DNA of 64,000 nucleotides from Adhaeribacter rhizoryzae. Its GTDB lineage: Bacteria; Bacteroidota; Bacteroidia; Cytophagales; Hymenobacteraceae. The notes below the pieces were generated by a model, which searched no databases, had not been told where the DNA came from, and saw only the letters and a list, made by a program, of their open reading frames with translations. The first letter of the stretch is position 1; each line of letters starts with the position of its first letter. Where the stretch lies: positions 1-64,000 of the forward strand of contig NZ_VWSF01000017.1 of NCBI RefSeq assembly GCF_008629685.1, given 5' to 3'. The translations under genes and the position numbers were made by a program. Below, piece after piece: positions 118 to 12,902 of this stretch.

Positions 118-1445
118 TTTATAGGGAGATTGGGAAGGTTAAGAGGGGGGGGAAGTTATTAACCGCTCTTTAATATCCTGAAGAAGACTATAACGAAGTC
201 TACTACAATTATGAACTTGGGGCTCTTGTAGTTTAAAAGACCTTAAATTATGATTCATAATAGACACTGCTAACCCGTTTTTTATTGGTGGTACGTTTCT
301 GATGATACATTTTTAAGTTTTCATAGTCTTGAAAAAGCTTTCTTCCACTTGTCTTAATATAGTCTTTGTAAATCCGACTGCTCTGCTTCTCTTTTTTAAT
401 AAAACTTTAGTATATGAAAAGTGCTGTATCCTTTTTGCAGATGGAATTAAATATTTTTCACGCATACGAATAGAGCAAAATTTATTGAGTTTTGCTCTGT
501 CTACTTATAATTCTCCGCTAGTTAAGGATAGTTGAGGTAAGGGGCCTAGATAGGCTCGTAAGTAATATCACGTACCTATAGCTGATTGGTTGCACTAGAC
601 AATGAGGGTCCGAATAAGAGATTTGCATAGATGCTTATTATGCTTGCTATCTTATTGCGGAAATAAAACTGGATCTAAACATTGATTATTTCGGAATGAT
701 TGGGATAATTTTGGGCATCGTGGTTGCGCATGAATTTTCCTGGCCGGTGACCAAGGTTATAACTGCTGCCGAAAATCAGCCAACAGTTGGCTACAGCCAT
801 AATGCCGTTTGTGGTGTCAGCATATTTTCCCTAATTGCTCTTGCTTTAACGCTACAACATGGTAGCCAATTCACGTTAGTAATAATAGTAAACTTTTCGC
901 CCCGTTTCTGTTATTCTACACAAGAACACTATAGAAAACTCACTTACAACTGTCGCTTTAACATGGCAGAAGCGTTTTTGTCGGTAAAGTAAGTGTTTGA
1001 CTTAGCGTTCTTGTATGGCTATTGTTATACAGCACACTTTTAAGTGTACTGACACGATTATATCGATTCTATCAATATATCTACTACATATTTGAATATT
1101 ACGCCTTTCTACTCTGTCCTGACTTTATTTAAATTTTCATCGATAAAAGATGTAAGTATTTTTTTTTGAATACCAGTTCTGAACTGCTCGTCAGTTACAT
1201 TGATGCAGCGGTTATTCCTCTTGCTCTAGATGGCTTCAGTTTGCTATTTTAAACATCCGTGCATTCTCAACTATAACAGAGCCGCGAGAGGGTGTTTAAA
1301 GGCCAATATGCCTTTATCTACTTCATCTTCTACCAACGGCTTGATGTTTACGCTAATTCTTTTAAGCCACTTCTCTGCGCCCTAAAACTTTACATCTGCT
1401 TAACGCTATTCGTATAAGCTTTATTCAGAAAGTTTATATTGTTAA
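118..1445. other. gene-free region with decayed coding debris
   Basis: No convincing intact gene is present. Open frames are short and look like chance. Two stretches look like eroded coding DNA. At about 664-870 (+) the translation contains GMIGIILGIVVA and FSWPV, vaguely like the C-terminal membrane part of a MacB/FtsX-type permease. At about 1279-1390 (-) a frame reads EKWLKRISVNIKPLVEDEVD without a start. A third stretch near 320-390 (-) contains RQVEESFFKTMK, which could be a transposase remnant. None is assignable with confidence. Confidence 0.4.
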
Positions 1446-1488
1446 AATAAAAAAGCCTCCCAGATATTATCTAAGAGGCTTTTTTATT
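1446..1488 (-). terminator. native tRNA-Lys terminator, displaced from its gene
   Basis: A perfect 14-bp inverted repeat (1446-1459 and 1475-1488, core AAAAAAGCCTC/GAGGCTTTTTT) with a 15-nt loop is T-rich in both directions. It lies just outside the left copy of the attachment repeat. In the uninterrupted chromosome it would sit a few bases past the 3' end of the tRNA-Lys now found at 12830-12902, so it is probably the original tRNA terminator, separated from its gene by the insertion. Confidence 0.65.
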
Positions 1489-1496
1489 TTACTTTT

Positions 1497-1512
1497 GTGA
1501 TCCCGCTGGGAT
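1497..1512. repeat. attL, left attachment repeat
   Basis: The 16-bp sequence GTGATCCCGCTGGGAT is identical to 12829-12844, which is the 3' end (acceptor stem and T-arm) of tRNA-Lys. Bases on both sides differ between the copies, so the repeat is exactly 16 bp, as expected for a duplicated core site at the ends of a tRNA-targeted element. Confidence 0.85.
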
Positions 1513-1614
1513 CACATACCTTTTAACTAACATTTACTTAAAATGCCTTTAATTATCAAATAAAGCTATTTTCTATAAATATTTTACCCTTTTTTTCTTA
1601 TCTTTACTATACTT

Positions 1615-1636
1615 AATGGAACCTATAACGGAACCT
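1615..1636. repeat. left subterminal direct repeat (putative integrase arm site)
   Basis: AATGGAACCTATAACGGAACCT matches 12752-12773 at 20 of 22 positions in the same orientation. It contains GGAACCT twice at 12-bp spacing. It lies between attL and the integrase start, where arm-type sites or the integrase promoter operator would be expected. Confidence 0.55.
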
Positions 1637-1649
1637 AAATTATGAAAGT

Positions 1650-2876
1650 ATGGCCACAGTAAAGCTGATTATCCGGGAAAATAAAATAAATTCAGAAGGA
1701 TTATGTGTCATCTACGTTAAGTACACCCATAATCAAAACTATACCTTATTTAGCACCGGTGAGAAAGTTGCGCCGGAATACTGGGATGCTCGAAATCAAA
1801 AGGCAAGAAAGTCTTTACGGGGATTTAATGCCTTAAATGAAACCATCCAGGTTAAGGCTGAGGAAATTAAGGAAATTTCCCGTATTGCGAAGCAGAATAA
1901 ACTAGACCCAACTTTAGAGCACGTTAAATCAGTTTGGAATTCTAAAAAGCCAAATTTTCCGGAAGTAAACAAAGATTTCTTCTCCTTATTTGAAAAGTAT
2001 ATACTGGAAACTGCCTCTTCTAAAGCCTACGGAACGAATAAGCATTATAAGTCCTCCCTCAACCATTTAAGGGAATTCTCTATTTCCAAAAAAATTAAAA
2101 TCTCATTAGAAAAAATGAACCTGGAGTTCTACGATAAATTTATTCAGTTTCTTACAACTAATAAAAAAATGAGTGGTGGTTCAGTTAATAATCAGATAAA
2201 AAGGTTGAAGGTCTTTCTCGGTTATTTATATGAAAGAGGTATACATACCGATTTATCCTTTAAAAAATTTCAAAGAGTTAAGCAAAATGAATGTGATATT
2301 GTATACTTAACTCAATATGAATTAAATACTTTATATACTTATAATTTGGAAGGAAATAAAAGGCTTGAAAAAGTACGGGATTTATTTGTATTAGCCTGTA
2401 CCACCGGTCTCCGTCATTCTGACTTTACCGCTTTGAAGCCGGAAAACATTAAAGAAAATTATATTACCCTTTCTACTCAAAAAACAAAGGACCCGCTAAA
2501 GATACCCCTTAATTATTATTCTAAAGCTATATTAGCTAAGTATGACAATAGCCCGCCAAAATTATCACAGCAAAAGTTTAATAATTATATCAAAGAGTTA
2601 GGTCAATTATGTGGAATAGATGAACCTACTGAAGTAATAAAGTATAACGGAAGTACCAGAATTAAAAATACCTCTCCTAAGTACGAATTGCTTACCAGCC
2701 ATACTGGCCGGCGAACCTTTATCACTCTTTCATTAGAAAAAGGAATGAGAGCCGAAACTGTTATGAAAATAAGTGGTCATAAGGATACTAAAACTCTTAT
2801 GCGCTATGTAAAAATAACAGATAAAGTTAAAGAAGTAGAAATGTTAAAGGCTTGGGACAATTTCAACACTGCTTAG
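1650..2876 (+). CDS. tyrosine recombinase/integrase of the mobile element
   Basis: Site-specific integrase of 408 aa, the usual length for Bacteroidetes tyrosine recombinases. The N-terminal 90 residues form an arm-DNA-binding domain, residues about 105-215 a SAM-like core-binding domain, and the C-terminal part the catalytic domain. Catalytic residues are visible: Arg255 in TGLRHSDF, Lys278 in TQKTKDP, His351 and Arg354 in HTGRRTF, His377 in SGHKD and the nucleophile Tyr386 in LMRYVKI. It should cut and join the 16-bp core in tRNA-Lys to insert and excise the element. ATG1650 gives the complete N-terminal domain. It is the first gene inside attL and is transcribed into the element. A 22-bp repeat shared with the right end lies immediately upstream and may be an arm site or operator. 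Confidence 0.93.
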   Translation: MATVKLIIRENKINSEGLCVIYVKYTHNQNYTLFSTGEKVAPEYWDARNQKARKSLRGFNALNETIQVKAEEIKEISRIAKQNKLDPTLEHVKSVWNSKKPNFPEVNKDFFSLFEKYILETASSKAYGTNKHYKSSLNHLREFSISKKIKISLEKMNLEFYDKFIQFLTTNKKMSGGSVNNQIKRLKVFLGYLYERGIHTDLSFKKFQRVKQNECDIVYLTQYELNTLYTYNLEGNKRLEKVRDLFVLACTTGLRHSDFTALKPENIKENYITLSTQKTKDPLKIPLNYYSKAILAKYDNSPPKLSQQKFNNYIKELGQLCGIDEPTEVIKYNGSTRIKNTSPKYELLTSHTGRRTFITLSLEKGMRAETVMKISGHKDTKTLMRYVKITDKVKEVEMLKAWDNFNTA

Positions 2877-2933
2877 CCAATATTTTAACCGGGCAACAAT
2901 AATTTAAAATTATAAAAGATATAAATTACCAAT

Positions 2934-4070
2934 TTAGTCGTTCACAAAATCTAAATCACCATTATAGTCTTCCCAGGTGCCATATTGCCCATCTGTTAAC
3001 GCATCAAAAGCATCCTTTTCACTTTCTGCATAACTAAGAGAGCTATCACCATCAAAATTTTTTAAATACCTGGTTACTAATGTCAATTGTAAACTCAAAT
3101 ACTTATCGGTCAATTTAAACTTTACACACCAATCATAAACATATTTAGTTAATTCTTCTAATCCTAATTCAATTTGAAAATCCTTTTGGCAGAAAGACTC
3201 TAAAGATTTTTTATTTTCCCAATTTTGAATTATTAAATTATTTAGATTTAAAGAAGGAAATTTCTCCCTGTATTTAACATAGTCTTTCAAAGCTTGGTCC
3301 AAATTTGTTATTTCACTGAACAGAATAGATTCAACATTATCCGAACAGAATGGGGTCATAAAAGCATTAATACCATAGCCATTTTCAAAAAAGTAATCTT
3401 CATATTCAAAGTTTGAATAATCTATATCTACATAAAGAACTACGATAGCATCTCCAACCATTTTAAAAATATGGTGTTTTTTAAAAAAATAGTCCTCCTG
3501 ATATTTACTAAATACCTTAAAATCATTAAAGTCAACTAATTTTATTTTAATTTTAACTTTCTTGTCAGAGGGTTTCACTAAATAATTCTTATTCAAAAAG
3601 CTATGAACTCTCTTAGAAAAATACCTAGCATAATAAAAGCCATTGTGTTGGCCTTTAAAGGATAGATTTTCTGAATTCCTTAAATAAGAGCTCTTTATTC
3701 TCGTAAATTTATTTCTATTGTAACAAATGAAAATATTACTGTTATAAGAATAAAAGTCTTCCCCTTTTTCGGCAACATTATCTCTAACCATATAGCAACT
3801 TTTAATTTTTAAGATATTTGAGATATTAGCTAACTTGGTATAGTTCTTACCTACAGCGTTTGGGGATAAACCAGAATTAGAAAGAAACTGAACTCCATCA
3901 AAACATTTTTGAGTAAGTGTAAAATTATGAATGTTAATAATACACCAACTTAAATAATTAACATTTTCAATACATACCTCCTCAACTATTTTGCCACAAT
4001 ATTTTCCAAAAGGTAAAATTGCATCTATGGTAAACAGAAGAAAGTCAGCATTTTTTAAGTTCTTTTTCAT
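2934..4070 (-). CDS. cargo protein of unknown function with an ExoX-C-like N-terminus
   Basis: A 378-aa protein that I do not recognise as a whole. Residues about 19-50 (LPFGKYCGK, then VNYLSWCI) resemble the small domain found at the C-terminus of exonuclease X and in DUF3820 proteins, whose pattern is PFGKYKG followed by YLxW. The remainder is Lys/Asn/Phe/Tyr-rich with no motif I can name and no signal peptide or membrane helix. It is transcribed against the integrase and the restriction enzyme, is strongly AT-rich, and sits alone between a 57-bp gap and a 330-bp gap, as accessory cargo often does. It could be a defence or anti-defence gene. The family assignment rests only on the N-terminal motif. 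Confidence 0.7.
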   Translation of the reverse strand: MKKNLKNADFLLFTIDAILPFGKYCGKIVEEVCIENVNYLSWCIINIHNFTLTQKCFDGVQFLSNSGLSPNAVGKNYTKLANISNILKIKSCYMVRDNVAEKGEDFYSYNSNIFICYNRNKFTRIKSSYLRNSENLSFKGQHNGFYYARYFSKRVHSFLNKNYLVKPSDKKVKIKIKLVDFNDFKVFSKYQEDYFFKKHHIFKMVGDAIVVLYVDIDYSNFEYEDYFFENGYGINAFMTPFCSDNVESILFSEITNLDQALKDYVKYREKFPSLNLNNLIIQNWENKKSLESFCQKDFQIELGLEELTKYVYDWCVKFKLTDKYLSLQLTLVTRYLKNFDGDSSLSYAESEKDAFDALTDGQYGTWEDYNGDLDFVND

Positions 4071-4400
4071 AGATTTAAGTACTCTTTATATTAAGATGTT
4101 AAAAATATAAAGGGGCTTGGTAAGATAGTTTGCTTTTAAAAAGGCTATTTAACTAAAATTGCATCCTCAATAATTTTATCATTAGGAACCGATTCTTCAA
4201 CTGCCAATTCATTCAAAATAGAAGTTTCCTTTAGATAAGGTCTTTAAACAATAATCCCTTTATCAATAAAGCAAAATTTTATATATTTTCCGTTCTTTAT
4301 TTTACTTTCCTGTATTTTGCTTATTTTAAGCTTTCGAAGCATGCTTAGCACTTAACGCAGCAGGTATAGCAACAATCGCTTTTTATTTTAAACACCTCTT
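4071..4400. other. gene-free divergent spacer upstream of the R-M gene
   Basis: An AT-rich 330-bp gap between two divergently transcribed genes. It must hold both promoters. No plausible ORF, RNA gene or clear terminator was seen. Confidence 0.4.
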
Positions 4401-7151
4401 ATGGCAGCTTTAAGCTGGAACGAAGTAAAAGACCGCGCTGTGCGGTTTAGCAAAGAATGGGAAAACGAAACCAGCGAAGACGCGGAAGCCAAATCTTTTC
4501 TGGATGGCTTTTTTAACGTGTTTGGCATTACCCGCCGGCGCATGGCCGCCTTTGAACAGCGCGTAAAAAAAGCCGGCGACCGGGATGGGTTTATTGATTT
4601 GCTCTGGAAAGGCGTAATTCTGGTGGAAATGAAAAGCCGGGGCAAAGATTTAACCAAAGCCTATAAACAAGCCATTGATTATTTTCCGGGCCTGAAAGAT
4701 TACGATTTGCCCAAATATATTCTGGTTTCGGATTTTGAGAAGTTCCGGCTCTACGACCTGGAAGAAAACACGCAGCACGAATTTTTATTAAAAGACTTTT
4801 ACCAAAACGTAAAGCTGTTTGGGTTTATACTGGGCTACCAAACTAAGAGCTACAAGAGCGAAGACCCCGTAAATATTGAGGCCGCCGGGCGCATGGGCAA
4901 ACTGCACGACCAGCTAAAAGCCATTGGCTACGAAGGCCACGAACTGGAAGTATACCTGGTACGCATCCTGTTTTGCTTGTTTGCAGAAGACACCAGCATT
5001 TTTGAGAAGCGGTATTTCCAGGATTATATTGAGCAGAAAACCGCCGAAGACGGCCACGATTTAGCGGCGCACTTGGCTCAGTTGTTTCATATCCTGAATA
5101 CACCCCCTGAGAAGCGCCTTCGGAATATTGATGAGCACCTGAACGGGTTCCCATACGTGAACGGCAAGCTGTTTGCCGAATATTTGTCACCGGCCAGTTT
5201 TGACAGCAAAATGCGGGAGGTTCTGCTCAACTGCTGTGCCCTGGACTGGAGCAAAATATCGCCGGCTATATTTGGGTCGTTGTTCCAGAGCGTAATGAAC
5301 CCGCAGGAACGCCGCAACCTGGGCGCGCACTATACCTCCGAAAAGAATATTTTAAAACTCATAAAGCCGCTGTTTTTAGATGCGCTCTGGCAGGAGTTTG
5401 AAAGCATAAAAACGAATAAAAACAAACTGCCGGAGTTTCATAAAAAACTAAGCACCTTAAAATTCCTGGACCCGGCCTGCGGCTGCGGCAACTTTTTAAT
5501 TATTACCTACCGCGAGTTGCGCCTGCTCGAAATAGAAGTCTTGCGTGCCCTGAACAAAAGCGGCCAGGGCTGGCTAAATGTAAGCGATATTATCTGGCTC
5601 GATGTGGATATGGTGTACGGCATTGAGTACGAAGAATTTCCGGCCCGTATTGCCGAAGTAGCCATGTGGCTCATCGACCACCAGATGAACATGCGCATCA
5701 GCCAAGAGTTTGGGCAATATTTTGCGCGTTTGCCCCTGAAAAAATCCGCGAATATTACCCACGGAGATGCTTTAGCTATTGATTGGGAATCAATAATTTC
5801 TATTAACCAGCTTTCCTATATCTTAGGAAATCCGCCTTTTATAGGTTCCAAAATAATGAAGCAAAACCAGCGGGATGATGTAATAAGATTATTTGGAAAT
5901 TCAGATAATGCTGGTGTTTTGGATTATGTAACCGGTTGGTATGTAAAAGCGGCTAAATATATTCAGAATACACAAATAAAAGTCGGTTTTGTTTCGACTA
6001 ATTCCATTGTGCAAGGTGAACAAACCAGTATTTTATGGGGGCTGCTACTGAATAAATATAATATTAAAATTCATTTTGCGCACCGGACTTTTAAATGGAG
6101 CAATGAGGCAAAAGGTAATGCAGCCGTTTATTGCGTAATTATTGGCTTTGCTAATTTTGATGTAGCTAATAAATATATTTATGAGTACGAAAATATTAAA
6201 GGTGAGCCCCACGAAGTAAAAGCAAAGAATATCAATCCTTATTTGGTTGATGCCACAGATTTATTAATTAATAGTAAATCTAATCCGATAAGTAATGTGC
6301 CAAAAATGAGTTTTGGGAATATGCCTTTAGACGGTGGAAACTTATTGTTATCGGACGAGGAGAAAAATGAACTATTAATTAAAGAACCTAGCTCGGCAAA
6401 ATATATTAAGCCATTAATTTCGGCTTATGAATTTTTAAATGGAAAAAGCCGCTGGTGTATTTGGTTAGTAGATGCAAATCCAAGTGAGTTAAAACAAATG
6501 CCGGAAATTTTAAAAAGAGTTGATTTAGTAAAGAAATTCCGTTTAGCTAGTGTGGCACCATCAACTCAAAAATTTGCAGCAACTCCTACTTTATTCAGAG
6601 ATAGAAATCAACCAGATACTTATATATTAATTCCAAGCACGACTTCAGAAAATCGAAGATATATACCTCTTGGCTTCTTTACTAAAGAATATATTGCTAA
6701 TAATAGCTGTCATACAGTGCCTAATGGAACATTATATCATTTTGGTATATTAACATCTGAAATGCACATGGCTTGGGTAAAATATATTTGTGGCAGATTA
6801 AAGAGTGATTTTCGATATTCTAAAGATATTGTCTATAACAACTTTCCGTGGCCGGAGAACCCGAACGAAAAGCAAATAAAAGCCGTAGAAGTGGCCGCGC
6901 AAAAAGTGCTGGATGCCCGCGCAGGCTTCCCCACCAGCTCCCTCGCCGACCTCTACGACCCGCTCACCATGCCGCCCGCCCTCGTAAAAGCCCACCAAGA
7001 CCTCGATAAAGCCGTAGACCTTTGCTACCGTCCGCAACCCTTCGCCTCCGAAGCCAAACGCATGGAGTTTTTGTTTGAGCTGTACGAGAAATATACCGCT
7101 GGTTTATTTGTGAAGGAGAAGCCGGGAAAGACTATCAAAATTAAAGCTTAA
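4401..7151 (+). CDS. MmeI-type (type IIL) single-chain restriction enzyme/DNA adenine methyltransferase
   Basis: A 916-aa fusion enzyme, close to the size of MmeI. The N-terminal nuclease shows a PD-(D/E)XK signature: Asp66, then Glu76 and Lys78 in VEMKSR, the D-X9-EXK spacing typical of MmeI relatives. A helical connector follows (about 160-300) with GAHYTS at 309-313. The gamma-class N6-adenine methyltransferase has SAM motif I LDPACGCGNF (356-365) and catalytic NPPF (477-480). A target recognition domain (about 600-830) and a C-terminal helical domain complete it. Such enzymes cut and methylate with one polypeptide and one specificity domain, so no partner subunit is needed. The section coding for about residues 455-815 (5765-6840) is conspicuously AT-rich, while both ends of the gene are GC-rich, suggesting replacement of the recognition region by recombination. 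The frame is intact, so it may be active. Confidence 0.9.
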   Translation: MAALSWNEVKDRAVRFSKEWENETSEDAEAKSFLDGFFNVFGITRRRMAAFEQRVKKAGDRDGFIDLLWKGVILVEMKSRGKDLTKAYKQAIDYFPGLKDYDLPKYILVSDFEKFRLYDLEENTQHEFLLKDFYQNVKLFGFILGYQTKSYKSEDPVNIEAAGRMGKLHDQLKAIGYEGHELEVYLVRILFCLFAEDTSIFEKRYFQDYIEQKTAEDGHDLAAHLAQLFHILNTPPEKRLRNIDEHLNGFPYVNGKLFAEYLSPASFDSKMREVLLNCCALDWSKISPAIFGSLFQSVMNPQERRNLGAHYTSEKNILKLIKPLFLDALWQEFESIKTNKNKLPEFHKKLSTLKFLDPACGCGNFLIITYRELRLLEIEVLRALNKSGQGWLNVSDIIWLDVDMVYGIEYEEFPARIAEVAMWLIDHQMNMRISQEFGQYFARLPLKKSANITHGDALAIDWESIISINQLSYILGNPPFIGSKIMKQNQRDDVIRLFGNSDNAGVLDYVTGWYVKAAKYIQNTQIKVGFVSTNSIVQGEQTSILWGLLLNKYNIKIHFAHRTFKWSNEAKGNAAVYCVIIGFANFDVANKYIYEYENIKGEPHEVKAKNINPYLVDATDLLINSKSNPISNVPKMSFGNMPLDGGNLLLSDEEKNELLIKEPSSAKYIKPLISAYEFLNGKSRWCIWLVDANPSELKQMPEILKRVDLVKKFRLASVAPSTQKFAATPTLFRDRNQPDTYILIPSTTSENRRYIPLGFFTKEYIANNSCHTVPNGTLYHFGILTSEMHMAWVKYICGRLKSDFRYSKDIVYNNFPWPENPNEKQIKAVEVAAQKVLDARAGFPTSSLADLYDPLTMPPALVKAHQDLDKAVDLCYRPQPFASEAKRMEFLFELYEKYTAGLFVKEKPGKTIKIKA

Positions 7152-7163
7152 TCTTTCTATAAT

Positions 7164-7823
7164 ATGCAAACGCTTTATCAGGTTCAAGGTATAAGTTCTG
7201 ACCACCCATATAACCTCAGGAATTTAGGAGAAAGAACCGGGATAGGAGGAACTAGGGTTAGGAGAACGGGAGAGGCCTCTAGGGAAAATAGAACCAGACC
7301 AACAACTATTCAGGATTATGACAATGAATTTATAGGCCGCCTAGTTAATTTTTACCCAGCGTACGAAGTAGAAGAATTTTTAGAATATCATTTTAGTAAA
7401 ACTGATTTCAAACCTGAGTTATGGTTAAAACATTTAGAATATGAAATTATAACCAATAAGGTTTTTGATAAAAAGGAAACTGAGAACTTTAAGAAACTTA
7501 TCATAGGTTGGGTTTCTAAAAGGAAAGAGGATATTGGTGTTACCTTGAATAAGGAGTTTAATATAGGTAACAAATACAATATAAAATGGCAGGATGATCA
7601 GACTAATTTAATTGAATTAGTATATGCTTTAATAGAAAGTGGTGTTATCAAGTACAATAAGAAGAAAGATGTAGTTAATGCCTTTTCGGAATTTTTTAAT
7701 TTTAAAATTCCCAATCCAAACCAAACTCTTAATGCAATAAAAAGGAGAAATAGTGATAACCCAACTATTTTACTTGATAAACTCAAAGATGGCTTTATAA
7801 ACTATTTGAATAAAGATGAGTAA
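7164..7823 (+). CDS. RteC-domain protein
   Basis: A 219-aa protein whose C-terminal half (about 135-215) matches the RteC pattern: a KWQDDQTNLIELVYALIESG segment corresponding to the conserved Trp, Asp and Leu-Ile-Glu-Leu core, then the helical end NAIKRRN with LLDKLKDGF. In Bacteroides conjugative transposons RteC activates excision genes. Here no RteA/RteB two-component genes are present. The N-terminal 60 residues are Arg/Gly-rich and unlike RteC. It follows the R-M gene by 12 bp, so it may be co-transcribed with it, and precedes the HTH-ATPase-primase module by 88 bp. Proposed role: regulator of element excision or replication; this is inferred. Confidence 0.7.
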   Translation: MQTLYQVQGISSDHPYNLRNLGERTGIGGTRVRRTGEASRENRTRPTTIQDYDNEFIGRLVNFYPAYEVEEFLEYHFSKTDFKPELWLKHLEYEIITNKVFDKKETENFKKLIIGWVSKRKEDIGVTLNKEFNIGNKYNIKWQDDQTNLIELVYALIESGVIKYNKKKDVVNAFSEFFNFKIPNPNQTLNAIKRRNSDNPTILLDKLKDGFINYLNKDE

Positions 7824-7911
7824 AAAAAATTTGCTTTTAGTAAGCTTTTAGTAAAAGAACTATTTTTCTCTGCTTAACTAGACTTGCATTGTACTTTTAA
7901 CAAATAAAGCG

Positions 7912-8202
7912 ATGCAGGAACATTTAGAATTATTAATCCCTATTATTACACTACCTCAATTTCGTAAAATATTAGCGGAGGTAGTAAGCGAAGAAATTAA
8001 CAAAAATCATAACTACCACACGGAACCTGAAACTGAGAAGTTATATACCATCAGAGAAGCCTGTAAATACTTAGGCTTATCCAAACCTACTATTTATTCC
8101 CTTATGAAAGAGGGTAAGTTGAAGTCAACTTACCTGGGAATAAACCGGCTTCGGTTTCAGAAACAAGATTTACTAGCTTACATCAATTCAGGCCGGAAAT
8201 GA
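7912..8202 (+). CDS. excisionase-like helix-turn-helix protein
   Basis: A 96-aa protein with a MerR-like/HTH_17 DNA-binding domain at about residues 44-94. YTIREACKYLGLSKPTIYSL is the helix-turn-helix, followed by a wing with RLRFQKQDLLAYI. Proteins of this type in Bacteroidetes elements act as excisionase or recombination directionality factor, or as regulator of the replication module. The N-terminal 40 residues are a helical extension. Its TGA overlaps the ATG of the next gene (ATGA), so the two are translationally coupled. Confidence 0.85.
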   Translation: MQEHLELLIPIITLPQFRKILAEVVSEEINKNHNYHTEPETEKLYTIREACKYLGLSKPTIYSLMKEGKLKSTYLGINRLRFQKQDLLAYINSGRK

Positions 8203-9290
8203 GTGGGCTCTACACTTCCGCCGTAAATGGTTCGGGTAAACTTAACCTAGAGCATTTGAATGTAAATTCAGATCCCGTACTGAGTAAACTAGCTAATGAG
8301 GCAACAAATTTTAAAGTTTCAGAACCGGACTCGGGCCATCAGCAAAGTAAACACCCATTTGTTTATACTGGTAAAGAATTACTAGCCCATGCCGTCCAAG
8401 AGATTCCAACCCTTATTAAACCCATTTTTCCACAACGGGGATTAATTGCACTGGCTGGAAGTAGTGACACCGGAAAGAGTACCTTATTAAGGCAGTTAGC
8501 TATAGCAGTAAGCTGTAAGGAAACGCACTTTCTAAATTTCCCAATTCAGGCCCGTTATTCAAGTGCTATTTATGTATCTACCGAAGATGACGAACTAGCC
8601 ATTAATTTCCTGTTGCGTAAACAGAATCAAGGTAAGGGGTATAGTCCGGAGCAATACCAAGGTTTAAGGTTTATTTTCGATACGGAAGATATATTGGATA
8701 AGCTAGGAAAAGAACTAGCAGCTAATCCCGCTGATTTAGTTATTATAGATGCCTTTTCAGATTTATTTGTCGGGAGCTTAAACCAGACAAATGAAGTAAG
8801 GTCTTTTCTGAACCGGTACAAACTACTTTCGGATAAATACGACTGTTTAATAGTATTCCTGCATCATACCGGAAAACGTACAGATACCGGCACTCCTTCT
8901 AAACATAATTTATTAGGTAGTCAGGGATTTGAAGCGAAGATGCGCTTGGTTGTAGAGCTTAGAACTGACCCCGAAAGAGAAGAAATCCGGCACTTTTGCC
9001 TGGTTAAAGGAAACTACCTTCCACAGGCATATAAAAATCAATCATACGAACTCCACTTTGATGCAAACATGATTTTCACCAATACCGGCGAACGTACGGG
9101 TTTTGAAGCATTAAAAAGAGTAGAAGAAAATCCAAAAGAAAGTGCGCGAACAGATAAAATGCTTCAGGTAATAACCCTACTAAATCAAGGTAAAAAATAT
9201 GATGAAATTGCTTTGGAAGTAGGTATCGCTAAAGGAACTATATCTAAATGGCTAAAGAAGTTTCCAGTTTCCATGTTTCCAAACCCATAG
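8199..9290 (+). CDS. RepA-like AAA ATPase (hexameric helicase family)
   Basis: A 363-aa ATPase of the AAA_25/RepA family, related to plasmid replicative helicases. Walker A is GSSDTGKST (87-94), Walker B is DLVIIDAF (179-186) and LIVFLHHTGK (about 219-228) is the sensor-like strand. The C-terminal 45 residues (KMLQVITLLNQGKKYDEIA and onward) form a helix-turn-helix ending SKWLKKF. It likely drives element replication with the downstream primase-like protein. The start ATG8199 overlaps the stop of the HTH gene. The stop codon lies in the loop of a 15-bp inverted repeat spanning the next gene's start. Confidence 0.88.
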   Translation: MSGLYTSAVNGSGKLNLEHLNVNSDPVLSKLANEATNFKVSEPDSGHQQSKHPFVYTGKELLAHAVQEIPTLIKPIFPQRGLIALAGSSDTGKSTLLRQLAIAVSCKETHFLNFPIQARYSSAIYVSTEDDELAINFLLRKQNQGKGYSPEQYQGLRFIFDTEDILDKLGKELAANPADLVIIDAFSDLFVGSLNQTNEVRSFLNRYKLLSDKYDCLIVFLHHTGKRTDTGTPSKHNLLGSQGFEAKMRLVVELRTDPEREEIRHFCLVKGNYLPQAYKNQSYELHFDANMIFTNTGERTGFEALKRVEENPKESARTDKMLQVITLLNQGKKYDEIALEVGIAKGTISKWLKKFPVSMFPNP

Positions 9291-9309
9291 GAAATGGAAA
9301 CATGGAAAC
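9267..9309 (+). promoter_or_regulatory. inverted repeat over the ATPase/primase junction
   Basis: A perfect 15-bp inverted repeat, GTTTCCATGTTTCCA at 9267-9281 and its complement at 9295-9309, with a 13-nt loop. The loop contains the TAG of the ATPase gene and an AGGAAA tract. The right arm contains ATG9302. In mRNA the hairpin would hide that start unless ribosomes finishing the upstream gene open it, suggesting translational coupling. It could alternatively be a protein-binding site or replication iteron; TTTCCA occurs three times in a row at its left. Confidence 0.5.
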
Positions 9310-10315
9310 ACTAAAGTGTACAACAATGGAACCTAGAGAAACTACTAAATTCAGGTTTAGCGGAGGCGGCTATAAATGCCCTTATTGTTCTTCCGGAACA
9401 GGTTGGTCTTATTTGCGAAATCATGGCAAAGAGTTTGGCCAATGTTTCTCTTGTGGTAAAAAAAATTTCCCGGGAAAAAATTTGAATATCCCAACTCAAT
9501 CTTATGCCTTAAAAGAGAAACCACTATTACCGGATAAATATATAAGTGAAGAGATAGTTCAAAAAAGTTTGAAGTGCTATGATTTAAACCCGTTCGTTCT
9601 ATTTCTGGAAAGCCAATTCGGGAAGGATGGCACTCAAAAAGTACTGAGTCAATTTAGGATTGGAACAGCTAAAAATGGAGGAACAGTTTTTTGGTACGTT
9701 GATAAAGCCCGCAATGTCCGAAAACCAAAGGTTGTATATTATAATTTAGATGGTAAAAGAATTAAAGGTAAGAAGCCTAATTTTGGGGGTTATACCAATG
9801 ATAAAGGTTATAGGCTCTGCTTGTTTGGAGAACACCAGCTACAAAAAAATTACTTTCCGGTAGATACCCCTGTATTTATGGTTGAAAGCGAGAAAACAGC
9901 TTGTATTGGTTATTTAGCTATGCCCCAATACATCTGGGTAGCAATAGGCGGAGATAAGGTAAACCTGGAACGGGCTAATGCTTTAAAAGGCCGTCAAGTC
10001 ATAATTTTGCCAGATGCAGATGAGCCAGGACGTAAAGGTTCAGAAAGTACTTCTCAAATTTTAACCAAGCTGAGTATATCCAACAAAATTCTGGACCTAT
10101 TTCCGGAAAGAAATGATAAAACAGACTTAGCTGATTATATTATTTCGCTTCATCATACAAATAAAACAGAAGTAATAAGCCGGCAAATACCCGTGGTTAA
10201 TACCTTACCTGAGAATAAAAAAGTAATGTTAGAGGTCCTATTCCATAATAACCCAATACTGTGGAGCCTAACCGAAAAGCTTGGATTAGTAGTTAAAGAT
10301 GTGAAGCTTACTTAA
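9302..10315 (+). CDS. zinc-ribbon/Toprim primase-like protein (DUF6371-like)
   Basis: A DNA primase-like protein with an N-terminal zinc ribbon (CPYC, then CFSC about 20 residues later) and a C-terminal Toprim-like domain in which VESEKTA supplies the conserved Glu and ILPDADEPGRKG the DxD motif. This layout matches DUF6371 proteins found beside RepA-like ATPases in Bacteroidetes elements. I place the start at ATG9302, 11 bp after the ATPase stop with AGGAAA in front. ATG9248 in the same frame would add 18 residues overlapping the upstream gene. Proposed role: priming or initiating replication of the excised element; this is inferred from domains and context. Confidence 0.82.
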   Translation: METLKCTTMEPRETTKFRFSGGGYKCPYCSSGTGWSYLRNHGKEFGQCFSCGKKNFPGKNLNIPTQSYALKEKPLLPDKYISEEIVQKSLKCYDLNPFVLFLESQFGKDGTQKVLSQFRIGTAKNGGTVFWYVDKARNVRKPKVVYYNLDGKRIKGKKPNFGGYTNDKGYRLCLFGEHQLQKNYFPVDTPVFMVESEKTACIGYLAMPQYIWVAIGGDKVNLERANALKGRQVIILPDADEPGRKGSESTSQILTKLSISNKILDLFPERNDKTDLADYIISLHHTNKTEVISRQIPVVNTLPENKKVMLEVLFHNNPILWSLTEKLGLVVKDVKLT

Positions 10316-10370
10316 AATAAAAGGGTAAAGCAAAGGTAGGTAAGTGGGGCATTTAAAATACTGTAGCACA

Positions 10371-10670
10371 ATGGCATTAGAAATTAGAAATGGAAGACCA
10401 TATTACTATCGTAAGAAAAGAAAAGGCAATAAAGTAATTTCTATTTATGTTGGCAGTGGTGAATTTGCTTTGGTTTCAGCCGACCTAGATTTTTACGAAC
10501 GATATAATAATACACAAGAAAAGAATTTAGAACGGAAAGAACAGGCTTTACACCTCCAAGCGGATAACGAGTTAAAATACCTGGAAGAAAAATTAAAAGA
10601 ATTGTTTACCTGGATAGCCGTAGCAAATGGCTACCATAAACCTAAAAGGCAATGGAGAAAGAAACGCTAA
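10371..10670 (+). CDS. small basic hypothetical protein of the element
   Basis: A protein of about 99 aa, rich in Lys and Arg, not assigned to a family. The N-terminus (EIRNGRPYYYRKKRKGNKV) looks like a short beta-rich nucleic-acid-binding segment, followed by a charged helix (about 40-80) and a basic tail. ATG10371 is preferred; a GTG at 10344 would add nine residues. It overlaps the next gene by 19 bp, which indicates an operon. A DNA-binding accessory role in replication or packaging is possible but unsupported. Confidence 0.65.
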   Translation: MALEIRNGRPYYYRKKRKGNKVISIYVGSGEFALVSADLDFYERYNNTQEKNLERKEQALHLQADNELKYLEEKLKELFTWIAVANGYHKPKRQWRKKR

Positions 10671-11179
10671 AAGGAACAGAGTTAAACCGCTTTCGTGACC
10701 TCATGAAAATCTGTAACGATTCGGATAAAATTAATGCTAATGTTAGAAAAGAAATAAAACAGCTTATCCAAAACAGTCCGGAATGTAAAGAGTATGTTCA
10801 AGCACAGGAAGATATGTATCCTGTTGCACTAAGTACCCGGATTGAGAATATGAGTTGCTCAGATTCTTTTAGGGAGGTCATGTATGTTAAATGTGAGGAA
10901 CTACGCCAAGAATTGGGTTATTCAACTTCAAACCGATTAGAGAAGCTGGCAATTGAGCAAATAGTCCTTTGCTGGTTTAACCACCACCAAACCGAAATAG
11001 AACACGCCAATATCCTTTCTCAATCTCCTAGTATTGAATTAGGTATTTATTGGGAAAAGCGATTAGCCTTTGCCAGCCGGCGTTATACTAGGGCCCTGGA
11101 GTTGCTTTCTAAGATGCGGAAAATGAATTTAGTGGTGCAGGTAAATAATGCTAATAACCAGTTTATAAATAGTAAGTAG
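10652..11179 (+). CDS. conserved-looking hypothetical helical protein of the element
   Basis: A 175-aa protein, predicted mostly alpha-helical and soluble. The end (RYTRALELLSKMRKM, then VQVNNANNQF) is a pattern I associate with small uncharacterised proteins in bacterial genomic islands, but I cannot name the family. It overlaps the small basic gene upstream and is the last gene of the plus-strand block, ending 33 bp before the convergent 457-aa gene. A terminase-small-subunit-like role was considered but has no motif support. Confidence 0.65.
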   Translation: MEKETLKGTELNRFRDLMKICNDSDKINANVRKEIKQLIQNSPECKEYVQAQEDMYPVALSTRIENMSCSDSFREVMYVKCEELRQELGYSTSNRLEKLAIEQIVLCWFNHHQTEIEHANILSQSPSIELGIYWEKRLAFASRRYTRALELLSKMRKMNLVVQVNNANNQFINSK

Positions 11180-11211
11180 GGTAAAACAGCTTTTTTATTA
11201 AATTATAGAAT

Positions 11212-12585
11212 TCATTTGGTAAAAATTGTAGGAACTTGGGGTAAACCACACCATTGTGCAATATTATTGTATTTTCCTGCTAAATCCCGGGCTATGTCTA
11301 TGCCGCCTTCTAAGGCTTTTATGGCTTTTCCTAATTGCTCGTTGCCATCGGTCATTGTTTCAACTATGCGCTTAAATTTGCTCATGGCTGGCGATTTCTT
11401 AACTTCCTCCGGGTTGGTTTCTTTTTCTATTTTCTCAAGAGCAGTTTCTAACGCTTGGAACTTCTTCTGAATTTCAATGTCATCTGTTAATAATTCTTTT
11501 AACTCGCTGATGTTTCCAAAAGCAGAAGAAATACTTTGAGTAAAGGTTATATTATTATCAATAGAATTTGAGTTACTTGAGTTTACAACAATAGAAATAT
11601 TATGATTACTGGATAAAGCATCACTAAGAAGCTTCGTTAATGTTTCGTTATCTTTCCTCTGAATTCCTATAATACGATCTTGATTTTTTATTTGAACTTC
11701 AGCCAATTGTAATTGATTTTCCATTTTTAGAAGTAATATATCATTTTTGATAAATTCTTCTGGTTGGGCTTTCCTAGAAACTATAAGTTGGTATTCTTCA
11801 AGTGCTTTTTCGATTATTTCGGACTTACCATCCTTAGTTTCTACAATTAATCTAACAAGCTTGCCTTCTTGTTCAATCTTTACTTTTGCTTTCTCATTCG
11901 GATACTGCTCCCGAATATAAGTTCCAAAAAAGTTCAAAATCCCTAAGCCGGCTTCATGGTATTCCTCTGGAAACTCTATACTTTTATTTATTATTTCATT
12001 ACTTTTTTCATTTAAGTTAGTGGTTTTCAATTCCACTACATTTCTAAAATCATCTAAAGAAAACGAGTCAGAATATGATGGAAATGTAAAACCAAGGATT
12101 AGGAATGGATATGGGTGGCTAAAAGGTGTAAGCGGCAAAAGCTGTTCTTCACATCTTTCAATAGTTGCTACGCCTAATCTATTTATATTAATACTTTGCG
12201 CAAAGTTTTTAGATGGGAGCAACATTATAGGGACTTTAACATAATTGTATTTCACTGCAAAAGTAGAGGTATTAAAAATCCAACTATGTATATTATTAAT
12301 TGATCCGTGATAAGCCATAATAGAAATTCCATTTTTTAAATTCCCAACTCCTCTTAATTTCATATTATGTTCTACTCCTAACCCTCGAATATTAGTTATC
12401 CAATCCATTTGCAATAAAAGTTCACTCATTATTTCTGATTGGGAAATACTCTTTCCTTCTTTTATTCGTTTATGGAATTCTTCGATGAATTCTGGCAATA
12501 TTTCGATTATCTCGTCTAATTCTAACCTATTTTCCTCTTTAACAATATCCCATGCTCCTTTATAACTAATAACTTTATTTACCAT
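11212..12585 (-). CDS. cargo protein of unknown function, possible defence effector
   Basis: A 457-aa soluble protein that I cannot assign. Three regions are visible. Residues 1-190 form an alpha/beta domain in which the segment around FAVKYNYVKVPIMLLPSK is weakly reminiscent of BglII-like nucleases, without the catalytic acidic residues. Residues about 210-300 contain a beta-hairpin/helix unit (KVKIEQEGKLVRLIVETKDG), then a coiled-coil-like stretch. A Ser/Asn-rich linker (SSNSNSIDNNITF) leads to a helical C-terminal region ending YNNIAQWCGLPQVPTIF. It has no signal peptide or membrane helix. Its position at the far right end of the element, in antisense orientation, is typical of swappable cargo. 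Antiphage defence is a guess from context. Confidence 0.7.
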   Translation of the reverse strand: MVNKVISYKGAWDIVKEENRLELDEIIEILPEFIEEFHKRIKEGKSISQSEIMSELLLQMDWITNIRGLGVEHNMKLRGVGNLKNGISIMAYHGSINNIHSWIFNTSTFAVKYNYVKVPIMLLPSKNFAQSININRLGVATIERCEEQLLPLTPFSHPYPFLILGFTFPSYSDSFSLDDFRNVVELKTTNLNEKSNEIINKSIEFPEEYHEAGLGILNFFGTYIREQYPNEKAKVKIEQEGKLVRLIVETKDGKSEIIEKALEEYQLIVSRKAQPEEFIKNDILLLKMENQLQLAEVQIKNQDRIIGIQRKDNETLTKLLSDALSSNHNISIVVNSSNSNSIDNNITFTQSISSAFGNISELKELLTDDIEIQKKFQALETALEKIEKETNPEEVKKSPAMSKFKRIVETMTDGNEQLGKAIKALEGGIDIARDLAGKYNNIAQWCGLPQVPTIFTK

Positions 12586-12751
12586 GATTTTAATTTATAA
12601 ATCGATTCCTATATTAGCTTTTAAAGTAAAAAATAAAAACAGGCTATTAAAGTTATATAAATTATTTATTCATGCGGAAGTATGCCTTTTAAAGCATTAA
12701 ATGTTTAAGAGTTACATTAAAAAGGTACATCAAATGTTTAGGACAAAAGTA

Positions 12752-12773
12752 AATGGAACCTATAATGTAACCT
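12752..12773. repeat. right subterminal direct repeat (putative integrase arm site)
   Basis: AATGGAACCTATAATGTAACCT matches the left copy at 1615-1636 in 20 of 22 positions and the same orientation. It lies about 56 bp inside attR, placing it symmetrically with the left copy. Confidence 0.55.
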
Positions 12774-12780
12774 GCAAACA

Positions 12781-12815
12781 AAAAAGCCTTATAAGCTATT
12801 GACTTATAAGGCTTT
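12781..12815 (-). terminator. terminator at the right end of the element
   Basis: A 13-bp inverted repeat (AAAGCCTTATAAG at 12783-12795, CTTATAAGGCTTT at 12803-12815), with an A-run on the left that becomes a T-run on the minus strand. It lies 14 bp past the tRNA-Lys 3' end and so replaces the original terminator left behind at 1446-1488. Confidence 0.65.
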
Positions 12816-12828
12816 ATCTAAATGAAAA

Positions 12829-12844
12829 GTGATCCCGCTGGGAT
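12829..12844. repeat. attR, right attachment repeat
   Basis: GTGATCCCGCTGGGAT, identical to attL at 1497-1512. It covers the 3' acceptor strand and the start of the T-arm of tRNA-Lys, so the tRNA stays intact at this junction. Confidence 0.85.
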
Positions 12845-12902
12845 TCGAACCCAGGACCCATACATTAAAAGTGTATTGCTCTACCAGCTGAGCTACAGAA
12901 TC
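12830..12902 (-). tRNA. tRNA-Lys (anticodon TTT)
   Basis: A 73-nt cloverleaf on the minus strand. The acceptor stem GATTCTG pairs with CGGGATC (two G-U pairs) and the discriminator is A. The D-arm contains AGCTCAGCTGGTAGAGC. The anticodon stem ATACA/TGTAT encloses loop CTTTTAA, giving anticodon TTT. The T-arm is CTGGGTTCGAATCCCAG. CCA is not encoded. It is the integration target of the element to its left. Confidence 0.95.

Follow-up and report, generated by a model that had tools for sequence, protein, structure and literature searches.

A tRNA-Lys island of Adhaeribacter rhizoryzae with defence cargo and a two-gene module that recurs across phyla

Many genomic islands carry an integrase, yet have no visible means of moving. 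The question here is how one of them, found in Adhaeribacter rhizoryzae, may get from cell to cell. The window, which is the whole stretch of 64,000 nucleotides that was analysed (NCBI RefSeq assembly GCF_008629685.1, contig NZ_VWSF01000017.1, positions 1 to 64,000), contains an integrative element of 11.3 kb at the 3' end of a tRNA-Lys gene. It is a small, clean case of such islands, and it comes with defence cargo.

The island most likely moves as a hitch-hiker, because it encodes no recognisable transfer machinery. The explanation proposed here is broader: an integrative element that replicates itself, carries defence genes along and depends on a helper, more probably a conjugative one than a phage. 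As a whole, this account is given about an even chance of being right.

At the 3' end of the island's operon are two small conserved genes, called o108 and o175. This pair recurs in similar islands across phyla, and it is the part worth following. It is a concrete two-gene module that can be tested, and potentially an important one. Should its role lie in replication, a part that island replicons have so far lacked would now have a name. If it acts in transfer, this would be a new mobilisation route.

Boundaries at the tRNA-Lys gene

The island is a real integrative element, bracketed by two exact copies of the 16-bp direct repeat GTGATCCCGCTGGGAT (coordinates are in Table 1). No other copy of this core is present on either strand of the 64-kb window. 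Going by base composition, chance would yield about 8e-7 exact 16-bp copies in 12.8 kb. The right one forms the 3' end of the tRNA-Lys(ttt) gene, the sole tRNA of the window. An earlier sequence-only reading of this DNA had proposed an island between these repeats at tRNA-Lys, and its boundaries hold.

Inside both island ends there is also an imperfect repeat of 31 bp. These two sequences may be the arm sites of the integrase.

Nine relatives were compared at this site (G001-G007, G009 and G014), namely seven congeners and two of the same family. Each has a tRNA-Lys gene at the syntenic position. In eight of them the match to the right flank sets in with the first base of the tRNA-Lys 3' end or a single base before. 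In the ninth, G006, one BLAST piece extends about 70 bp beyond the tRNA-Lys 3' end. With up to two mismatches allowed, the examined stretches of these relatives contain one copy of the core for each tRNA-Lys gene. This comparison had been suggested by the sequence-only reading, and nothing in it contradicts a duplication of the repeat by integration.

The window begins at a contig end, so the left flank is only 1.5 kb long. Together with the core, this flank matches the end and terminator of tRNA-Lys in three of the nine relatives (L036, L038 and L041; E 2e-4, 2e-4 and 7e-4), over 37-69 aligned bases, 16 of which are the core itself. A search with positions 1-1512 as query showed no similarity to the downstream region of G001 at E 1e-3. 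Since the left flank resembles the tRNA-Lys terminator of relatives, the most plausible reading is that this flank originally lay downstream of the gene, with the island supplying a terminator-like hairpin of its own.

In the congener G005, a prophage-like element with its own integrase comes after the same tRNA-Lys (L037, 1-15531; open reading frames judged by eye). In this genus, then, elements of different kinds use the gene.

Gene content and the element family

Ten open reading frames (ORFs) of the island were taken as genes and scanned against Pfam, PHROGs, NCBIfam and PADLOC. All ten are open and have no internal stops. Relaxase, coupling protein, terminase and structural families gave nothing above cut-off, and neither did lytic phage genes in Pfam and PHROGs. 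The island thereby does not fit two familiar kinds of element: an integrative mobilisable element (IME) with relaxase, known as iMOB, and an integrated prophage, for which Pfam and PHROGs recognised no terminase, portal, capsid or tail genes.

What is present agrees with the sequence-only reading. Pfam identifies the integrase, an excisionase-like helix-turn-helix (HTH) protein, a RepA-like ATPase and a zinc-ribbon/Toprim primase-like protein of the DUF6371 family. The defence cargo that had been suspected is found by PADLOC. The RteC gene, the completeness of the MmeI-type enzyme and the o108-o175 pair go beyond that reading.

Five genes run from 7912 to 11179 in the order HTH, RepA, DUF6371 primase, o108 and o175. 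They overlap by 4, 43 and 19 nt, there is one gap of 28 nt, and they look like a single operon. The HTH protein stays below cut-off for AlpA (PF05930, E 0.04).

Judged by its sequence, the 916-aa cargo protein is a full MmeI-type (Type IIG) restriction-modification enzyme. Five MmeI Pfam domains score above cut-off on a single chain (MmeI_N, helical spacer, methyltransferase, target recognition and C-terminal), and the motifs D..EXK, DPACG and NPPF are all there.

The same backbone is found elsewhere. Of 59 relatives, counting the own genome, 7 have a RepA homologue. The congener G006 (L043) has an integrase (by eye), a 381-aa protein, HTH_17, RepA, DUF6371 primase, o108, o175 and a PifA-like KAP NTPase. 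This is the gene order of the window island with other cargo, and the G006 integrase has no tblastn match to the island integrase. Directly beyond this related island, at L043 14381-16792, is a phage tape-measure gene (PF20155).

In G011 (L045) a tRNA-Ala comes first; a 309-aa protein and an HTH-like ORF precede RepA and the DUF6371 primase, which are followed by a 202-aa protein and Type I restriction genes. The o108-o175 pair is absent from this backbone. G013 (L047) has an integrase, an HTH-like ORF, RepA and a Type I methyltransferase. No convincing direct repeats were found to mark where L043, L045, L046 and L047 end.

A search with DUF6371 also led to short human-faecal scaffolds that were deposited as unverified phage sequences. 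The scaffolds L112-L116 (MT836828, MT836838, MT837912, MT836643 and MT839118) have a backbone of HTH, RepA or DUF3987, and DUF6371 in common. L112, L113 and L115 resemble the island in having an HTH-like ORF, a RepA- or DUF3987-type ATPase and the DUF6371 primase in the same order. L112 and L115 also have integrase genes, as the island does, and L112 and L113 have restriction genes (all by eye).

The difference lies in what follows the primase. Pfam confirms Mob_Pre in L112 and a NikA-like protein plus Relaxase in L115; in L113 the mobilisation role is putative, as the gene there has no Pfam match. The island has o108-o175 in the slot where L112 and L115 keep mobilisation genes, and no recognised relaxase. 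NBU1 and Tn4555 are Bacteroidota IMEs known from the literature; the comparison here covers the faecal scaffolds. In the literature searched, DUF6371 appears in a single paper, and a search on mobilisable elements turned up none.

A wider survey puts this in proportion. PF19898, the DUF6371 profile, is matched in 28 of 295 genomes of the class, own genome included. Another 32 DUF6371 loci were examined, and in 26 of them the sequence continues for 3.5 kb or more past the match. Iterated searches with three seeds brought up a relaxase-like gene in five of these 26, one of them (L161) counted only through the L113 seed, which has no Pfam match itself. A PF03432 profile search of 34 genomes gave matches adjoining the primase at G163:C69 and G195:C2. 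DUF6371 loci without a recognised relaxase are common, and a few look like prophages or degraded remnants. The o108-o175 pair was found in none of the 26 (profile searches on a reduced ORF list).

By its profile matches, then, the island has the HTH_17 protein, RepA-type ATPase and DUF6371 primase in order, plus a tyrosine integrase. It seems to belong to a family of elements in Bacteroidota, its module in the mobilisation slot being unusual.

The o108-o175 pair in other genomes

Neither o108 nor o175 belongs to a family that scores above cut-off in any of the four collections. Closer to home, 4 of 59 relatives (the own genome is one of the four) have an o175 match, partly in the form of fragments. 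Congeners have such fragments, and a truncated copy beside a transposase. In G002 (L048, 9512-9901) the truncated o175 adjoins the transposase ORF, Type III restriction genes and HKD-Snf2 helicase genes.

Further away, a search with a motif led to three loci (L080, L081 and L082). L080 and L082 show no clear match to the island proteins. L081, in a Myxococcus bin, has o108 and o175 in the same order, beside an excisionase-like HTH ORF, with a serine recombinase ORF close by (by eye). In a relaxed blastp among nine sequences, o108 gives a 100-residue alignment with 31% identity (50 bits), and o175 one of 98 residues with 26% (35 bits). Profiles built at genus level give these two proteins 42 and 20 bits. 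In the sample of the bin's phylum, o175 is matched in 1 of 117 genomes, which is the query genome itself.

A Thermomicrobiales genome (L084/L097) has Prim-Pol, AAA_25, o108 and o175. NCBI names its phylum Thermomicrobiota; in GTDB it is presumably Chloroflexota. The sample of this phylum has o175 matches in 9 of 301 genomes, query genome counted, five of them at E <1e-14. One of the phylum's genomes, G750 (L104), contains a 7.1-kb element at a tRNA-Ser gene (1386-8546). Its ends are a perfect 73-bp repeat of the 3' part of tRNA-Ser (1386-1458 and 8474-8546). The repeats flank o175 and o108, together with a Prim-Pol protein and an integrase. Eight proteins were scanned here, and no transfer gene was recognised among them.

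In IMG/VR the pair turned up in one 15.2-kb contig only (L110, IMGVR_UViG_3300029202_000233, of which 13.2 kb was examined), by pattern-based scans that can miss distant members. Island proteins match it directly (o108 at 2e-17, o175 at 7e-15). L110 consists of two related units with 79-88% identity, each with primase, o108, o175, recombinase and ParA. The copies of the first four are about 8.6 kb apart and those of ParA about 6.5 kb; a MerR-HTH and an AAA_25 are each seen once. The contig is catalogued as viral, and no structural gene was recognised among the ORFs scanned.

These sequences show that the pair occurs across phyla. The type of primase beside it varies, from DUF6371/Toprim (island) to Toprim (L110) and Prim-Pol (L097 and L104). 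In all intact cases that were read, the ORFs or matches of o108 and o175 overlap, with true starts being uncertain (window, L043, L081, L084, L101, L103, L104 and both L110 units). PADLOC reports a defence protein at all four loci submitted that have the pair or a truncated o175 (window, L043, L048 and L103).

Searches in other collections came back empty. With tblastn, 50,697 phage records had no match for island o175 or L110 o108, and 72,556 plasmid records had none for island o175, L110 o108 or L110 o175. The genus-only alignment A1 matched nothing in the genome contig collection or IMG/VR, and only the window in the 295 class genomes. Alignment A5 had no match in IMG/VR.

Structure models were made from four sequences for each protein. 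The o108 model, which covers the residues from 10371 on, has three strands and then a long helix, at a predicted local distance difference test (pLDDT) score of 90.7; o175 is modelled as all helical, with a pLDDT of 73.4. A likeness of o108 to integrase arm-binding domains (3jtz, 3rmp) was rejected at E 5 to 6, as was one of o175 to a terminase small subunit model at E 0.62. From its modelled shape and its basic C-terminus, a guess would be that o108 binds DNA. Most likely, the pair acts on the island's own DNA.

How the island may move

In the proposed account, the integrase and the HTH excisionase would insert and excise the island. RteC probably regulates the excision-replication operon, by analogy with CTnDOT. 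The RteC-family gene comes directly before an excisionase-class HTH gene, as it does in CTnDOT. In contrast to CTnDOT, the island has no recognised tra/mob genes, and RteA and RteB are not among the families that Pfam and NCBIfam found.

The excised circle would then be copied by RepA and the primase. The MmeI-type enzyme would protect against foreign DNA, and it would also make loss of the island costly. PMC5704250 names Type II restriction-modification among possible addiction systems of mobilisable elements; the same source describes the replication of excised mobilisable elements as never studied, as of 2017. The o108-o175 pair would act in replication, in maintenance, or in the hand-over of island DNA to a helper. 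Transfer itself would go through a cis-acting site or through o108-o175.

Potential helpers are at hand. PF03432 relaxases are encoded at three loci of the host genome (G000), which lie on contigs C11, C23 and C29 (L183-L185) and not on C9. C11 has both TraG P-loop and coupling proteins, C29 has the former and C23 the latter; the remainder of each tra region was read by eye. Terminase_6N (PF03237), the sole terminase family searched, has no match in the host genome. Because of these relaxase loci and the missing Terminase_6N match, conjugative hitch-hiking is somewhat likelier than packaging.

There is a named class that comes close. The iOriT is defined in PMC11389934 as an IME with an origin of transfer (oriT) and no relaxase; the definition of hitchers comes from the same paper. 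The island matches in being integrated, in its lack of a recognised relaxase and in the presence of conjugation genes in the same genome. It differs in that no mimic of the oriT of the three resident conjugation loci was found; it may carry an oriT for some other helper.

The missing mimic is one of several points that weigh against conjugative hitch-hiking. Mimicry was rejected as evidence, since no similarity rose above the control: the best E value was 0.11 for the island, versus 0.012 in unrelated host DNA. The seeds used found no relaxase-like gene at 21 of the 26 surveyed DUF6371 loci, and the absence of a relaxase is therefore in itself no pointer to hitch-hiking. The modelled folds of o108 and o175 have no match at E <= 0.001 in PDB, and o175 has none in BFVD either. 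And the island RepA is closest to RepAs borne by phages. One of these, 58% identical, lies in a prophage of G040 (L044) with terminase and tail-like genes (by eye), and the other, at 57%, in an IMG/VR phage. In a tree of 14 RepAs, these two are nearest to the island RepA by path; no well-supported group contains the island RepA.

The sequence-only reading had left two options, a Bacteroidota phage satellite or a minimal mobilisable element without a mob gene. An element at a tRNA site with neither mobilisation nor structural genes that could be recognised is indeed what is found, and either of the two options may apply. That reading had also named what would speak against it: a relaxase, a phage-structural homologue, or repeats that integration had not duplicated. 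These were looked for and not found.

A satellite would be something like a phage-inducible chromosomal island (PICI) or its minimalist variant (PICMI). A helper phage would trigger excision via the HTH protein, RepA and the primase would amplify the circle, and a cos or pac site, or o175, would direct packaging into capsids of the helper. The RepA likeness favours this, and so does much of the anatomy: a size in the right range, an integrase, a specific attachment site (here a tRNA gene), a primase-like gene, defence cargo and no recognised structural genes. PMC10803314, in its search model for PICMI, uses an integrase, AlpA (PF05930 or PF12728) and a primase. The island's HTH is of the PF12728 class, but its primase is from another family than that of the model. 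It also lacks a known helper and any recognised packaging gene; Pfam and PHROGs saw no terS, capsid-remodelling or helper-like gene in its ten ORFs. The backbone it would use occurs in mobilisable elements too, some with a relaxase right after the primase. The lack of matches to island o175 and L110 o108 in phage records, the single IMG/VR contig without a recognised structural gene and the host's lack of a Terminase_6N gene likewise argue against packaging. According to a statement in PMC6092414, attachment sites of Gram-positive PICIs are never occupied by prophages, whereas the prophage-like element of G005 uses the tRNA-Lys of the island. A literature search showed no report of a phage satellite in Bacteroidota. 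The 50-kb tRNA-linked island of Riemerella anatipestifer is, in the account of PMC9745183, a defective relative of phage RAP44 and not a small satellite. Compared trait by trait, the island is not claimed to be a PICI, and a satellite is rather unlikely.

There are also two readings without a phage. It may be that the island is a former IME which lost its relaxase and persists through selection for defence, with o108-o175 as a leftover replication accessory. In favour of this, L112 and L115, with the same backbone, have mobilisation genes directly after the primase, and congeners have o175 remnants. But the ten ORFs are open throughout and both attachment copies exact, and relaxase-like genes were not found at most of the surveyed DUF6371 loci either. 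G006, moreover, keeps the pair and layout with other cargo and another integrase, and a functioning lineage is therefore suggested. Decay is held to be improbable. Alternatively the island is a distinct kind of integrative replicon, with o108-o175 itself as the module for transfer or for recruiting a helper. The pair does sit in the mobilisation slot, it is kept with different primase types, and it is present in the tRNA-Ser element of L104, where an integrase was found and no transfer gene was recognised among the proteins scanned. Against that, no fold or sequence links the pair to transfer proteins, and a position after the primase would suit a replication accessory equally. This version is distinctly unlikely.

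A more general form of the idea is improbable too. It holds that o108-o175 defines a class of small tRNA-integrating elements, so far undescribed, whose range takes in Bacteroidota as well as the Thermomicrobiales phylum and one Myxococcus bin or more. Such elements would replicate after excision, and the pair, rather than a relaxase or capsid protein, would supply the hand-over to a helper or recipient.

Table 1. Features of the tRNA-Lys island, in window positions
Feature	Position	Strand	Basis or remark
attL-like copy of 16-bp repeat	1497..1512	.	identical to tRNA-Lys 3' end
Subterminal repeat, left, putative integrase arm site	1606..1636	+	common core AATGGAACCTATAA
Tyrosine recombinase/integrase, 408 aa	1650..2876	+	Arm-DNA-bind_5, Phage_int_SAM_5 and Phage_integrase above cut-off
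378-aa cargo protein, ExoX-like C-terminal motif near N-terminus	2934..4070	-	PF20600 1.8e-9, residues 21-47
MmeI-family Type IIG restriction enzyme-methyltransferase, 916 aa, defence/addiction cargo	4401..7151	+	PADLOC PDLC03598, 1242 bits over 4-900
RteC-family regulator	7164..7823	+	PF09357 2.1e-15, residues 119-218
Excisionase-like HTH_17 protein, first gene of operon	7912..8202	+	PF12728 2.6e-15; TIGR01764 excise 5.8e-14
RepA-like AAA_25 ATPase	8199..9290	+	PF13481 1.9e-21; weak C-terminal HTH matches
Zinc-ribbon/Toprim primase-like protein (DUF6371)	9248..10315	+	PF19898 3.5e-36; Toprim_2 below cut-off; similar to phage primase families
o108, conserved small protein	10344..10670	+	start perhaps 10371; no family above cut-off
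o175, conserved, overlaps o108	10652..11179	+	no family above cut-off
457-aa cargo protein	11212..12585	-	no family
Subterminal repeat, right, putative integrase arm site	12743..12773	+	81% identical to left copy
Hairpin and T-run within island, would terminate tRNA-Lys transcription	12780..12815	-	read from sequence
attR-like copy of 16-bp repeat	12829..12844	.	tRNA-Lys 3' end
tRNA-Lys (ttt), intact, target gene	12829..12902	-	ARAGORN

Two cargo genes have been left for last. The 457-aa protein, which has no PADLOC match, is 38% identical over its full length to a protein of the Polaromonas plasmid pH1NP1. This homologue is about 3.4 kb from genes for a DNA methyltransferase and a PDDEXK nuclease, with an integrase gene in between. 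The 457-aa protein might conceivably be defence cargo.

The 378-aa protein has no similarity at E 1e-3 to a G011 protein (L045, 18436-19458) beyond a common C-terminal piece of 20 residues, with the motif DALTDGQYG.WEDY. This piece is possibly an exchangeable tail motif.

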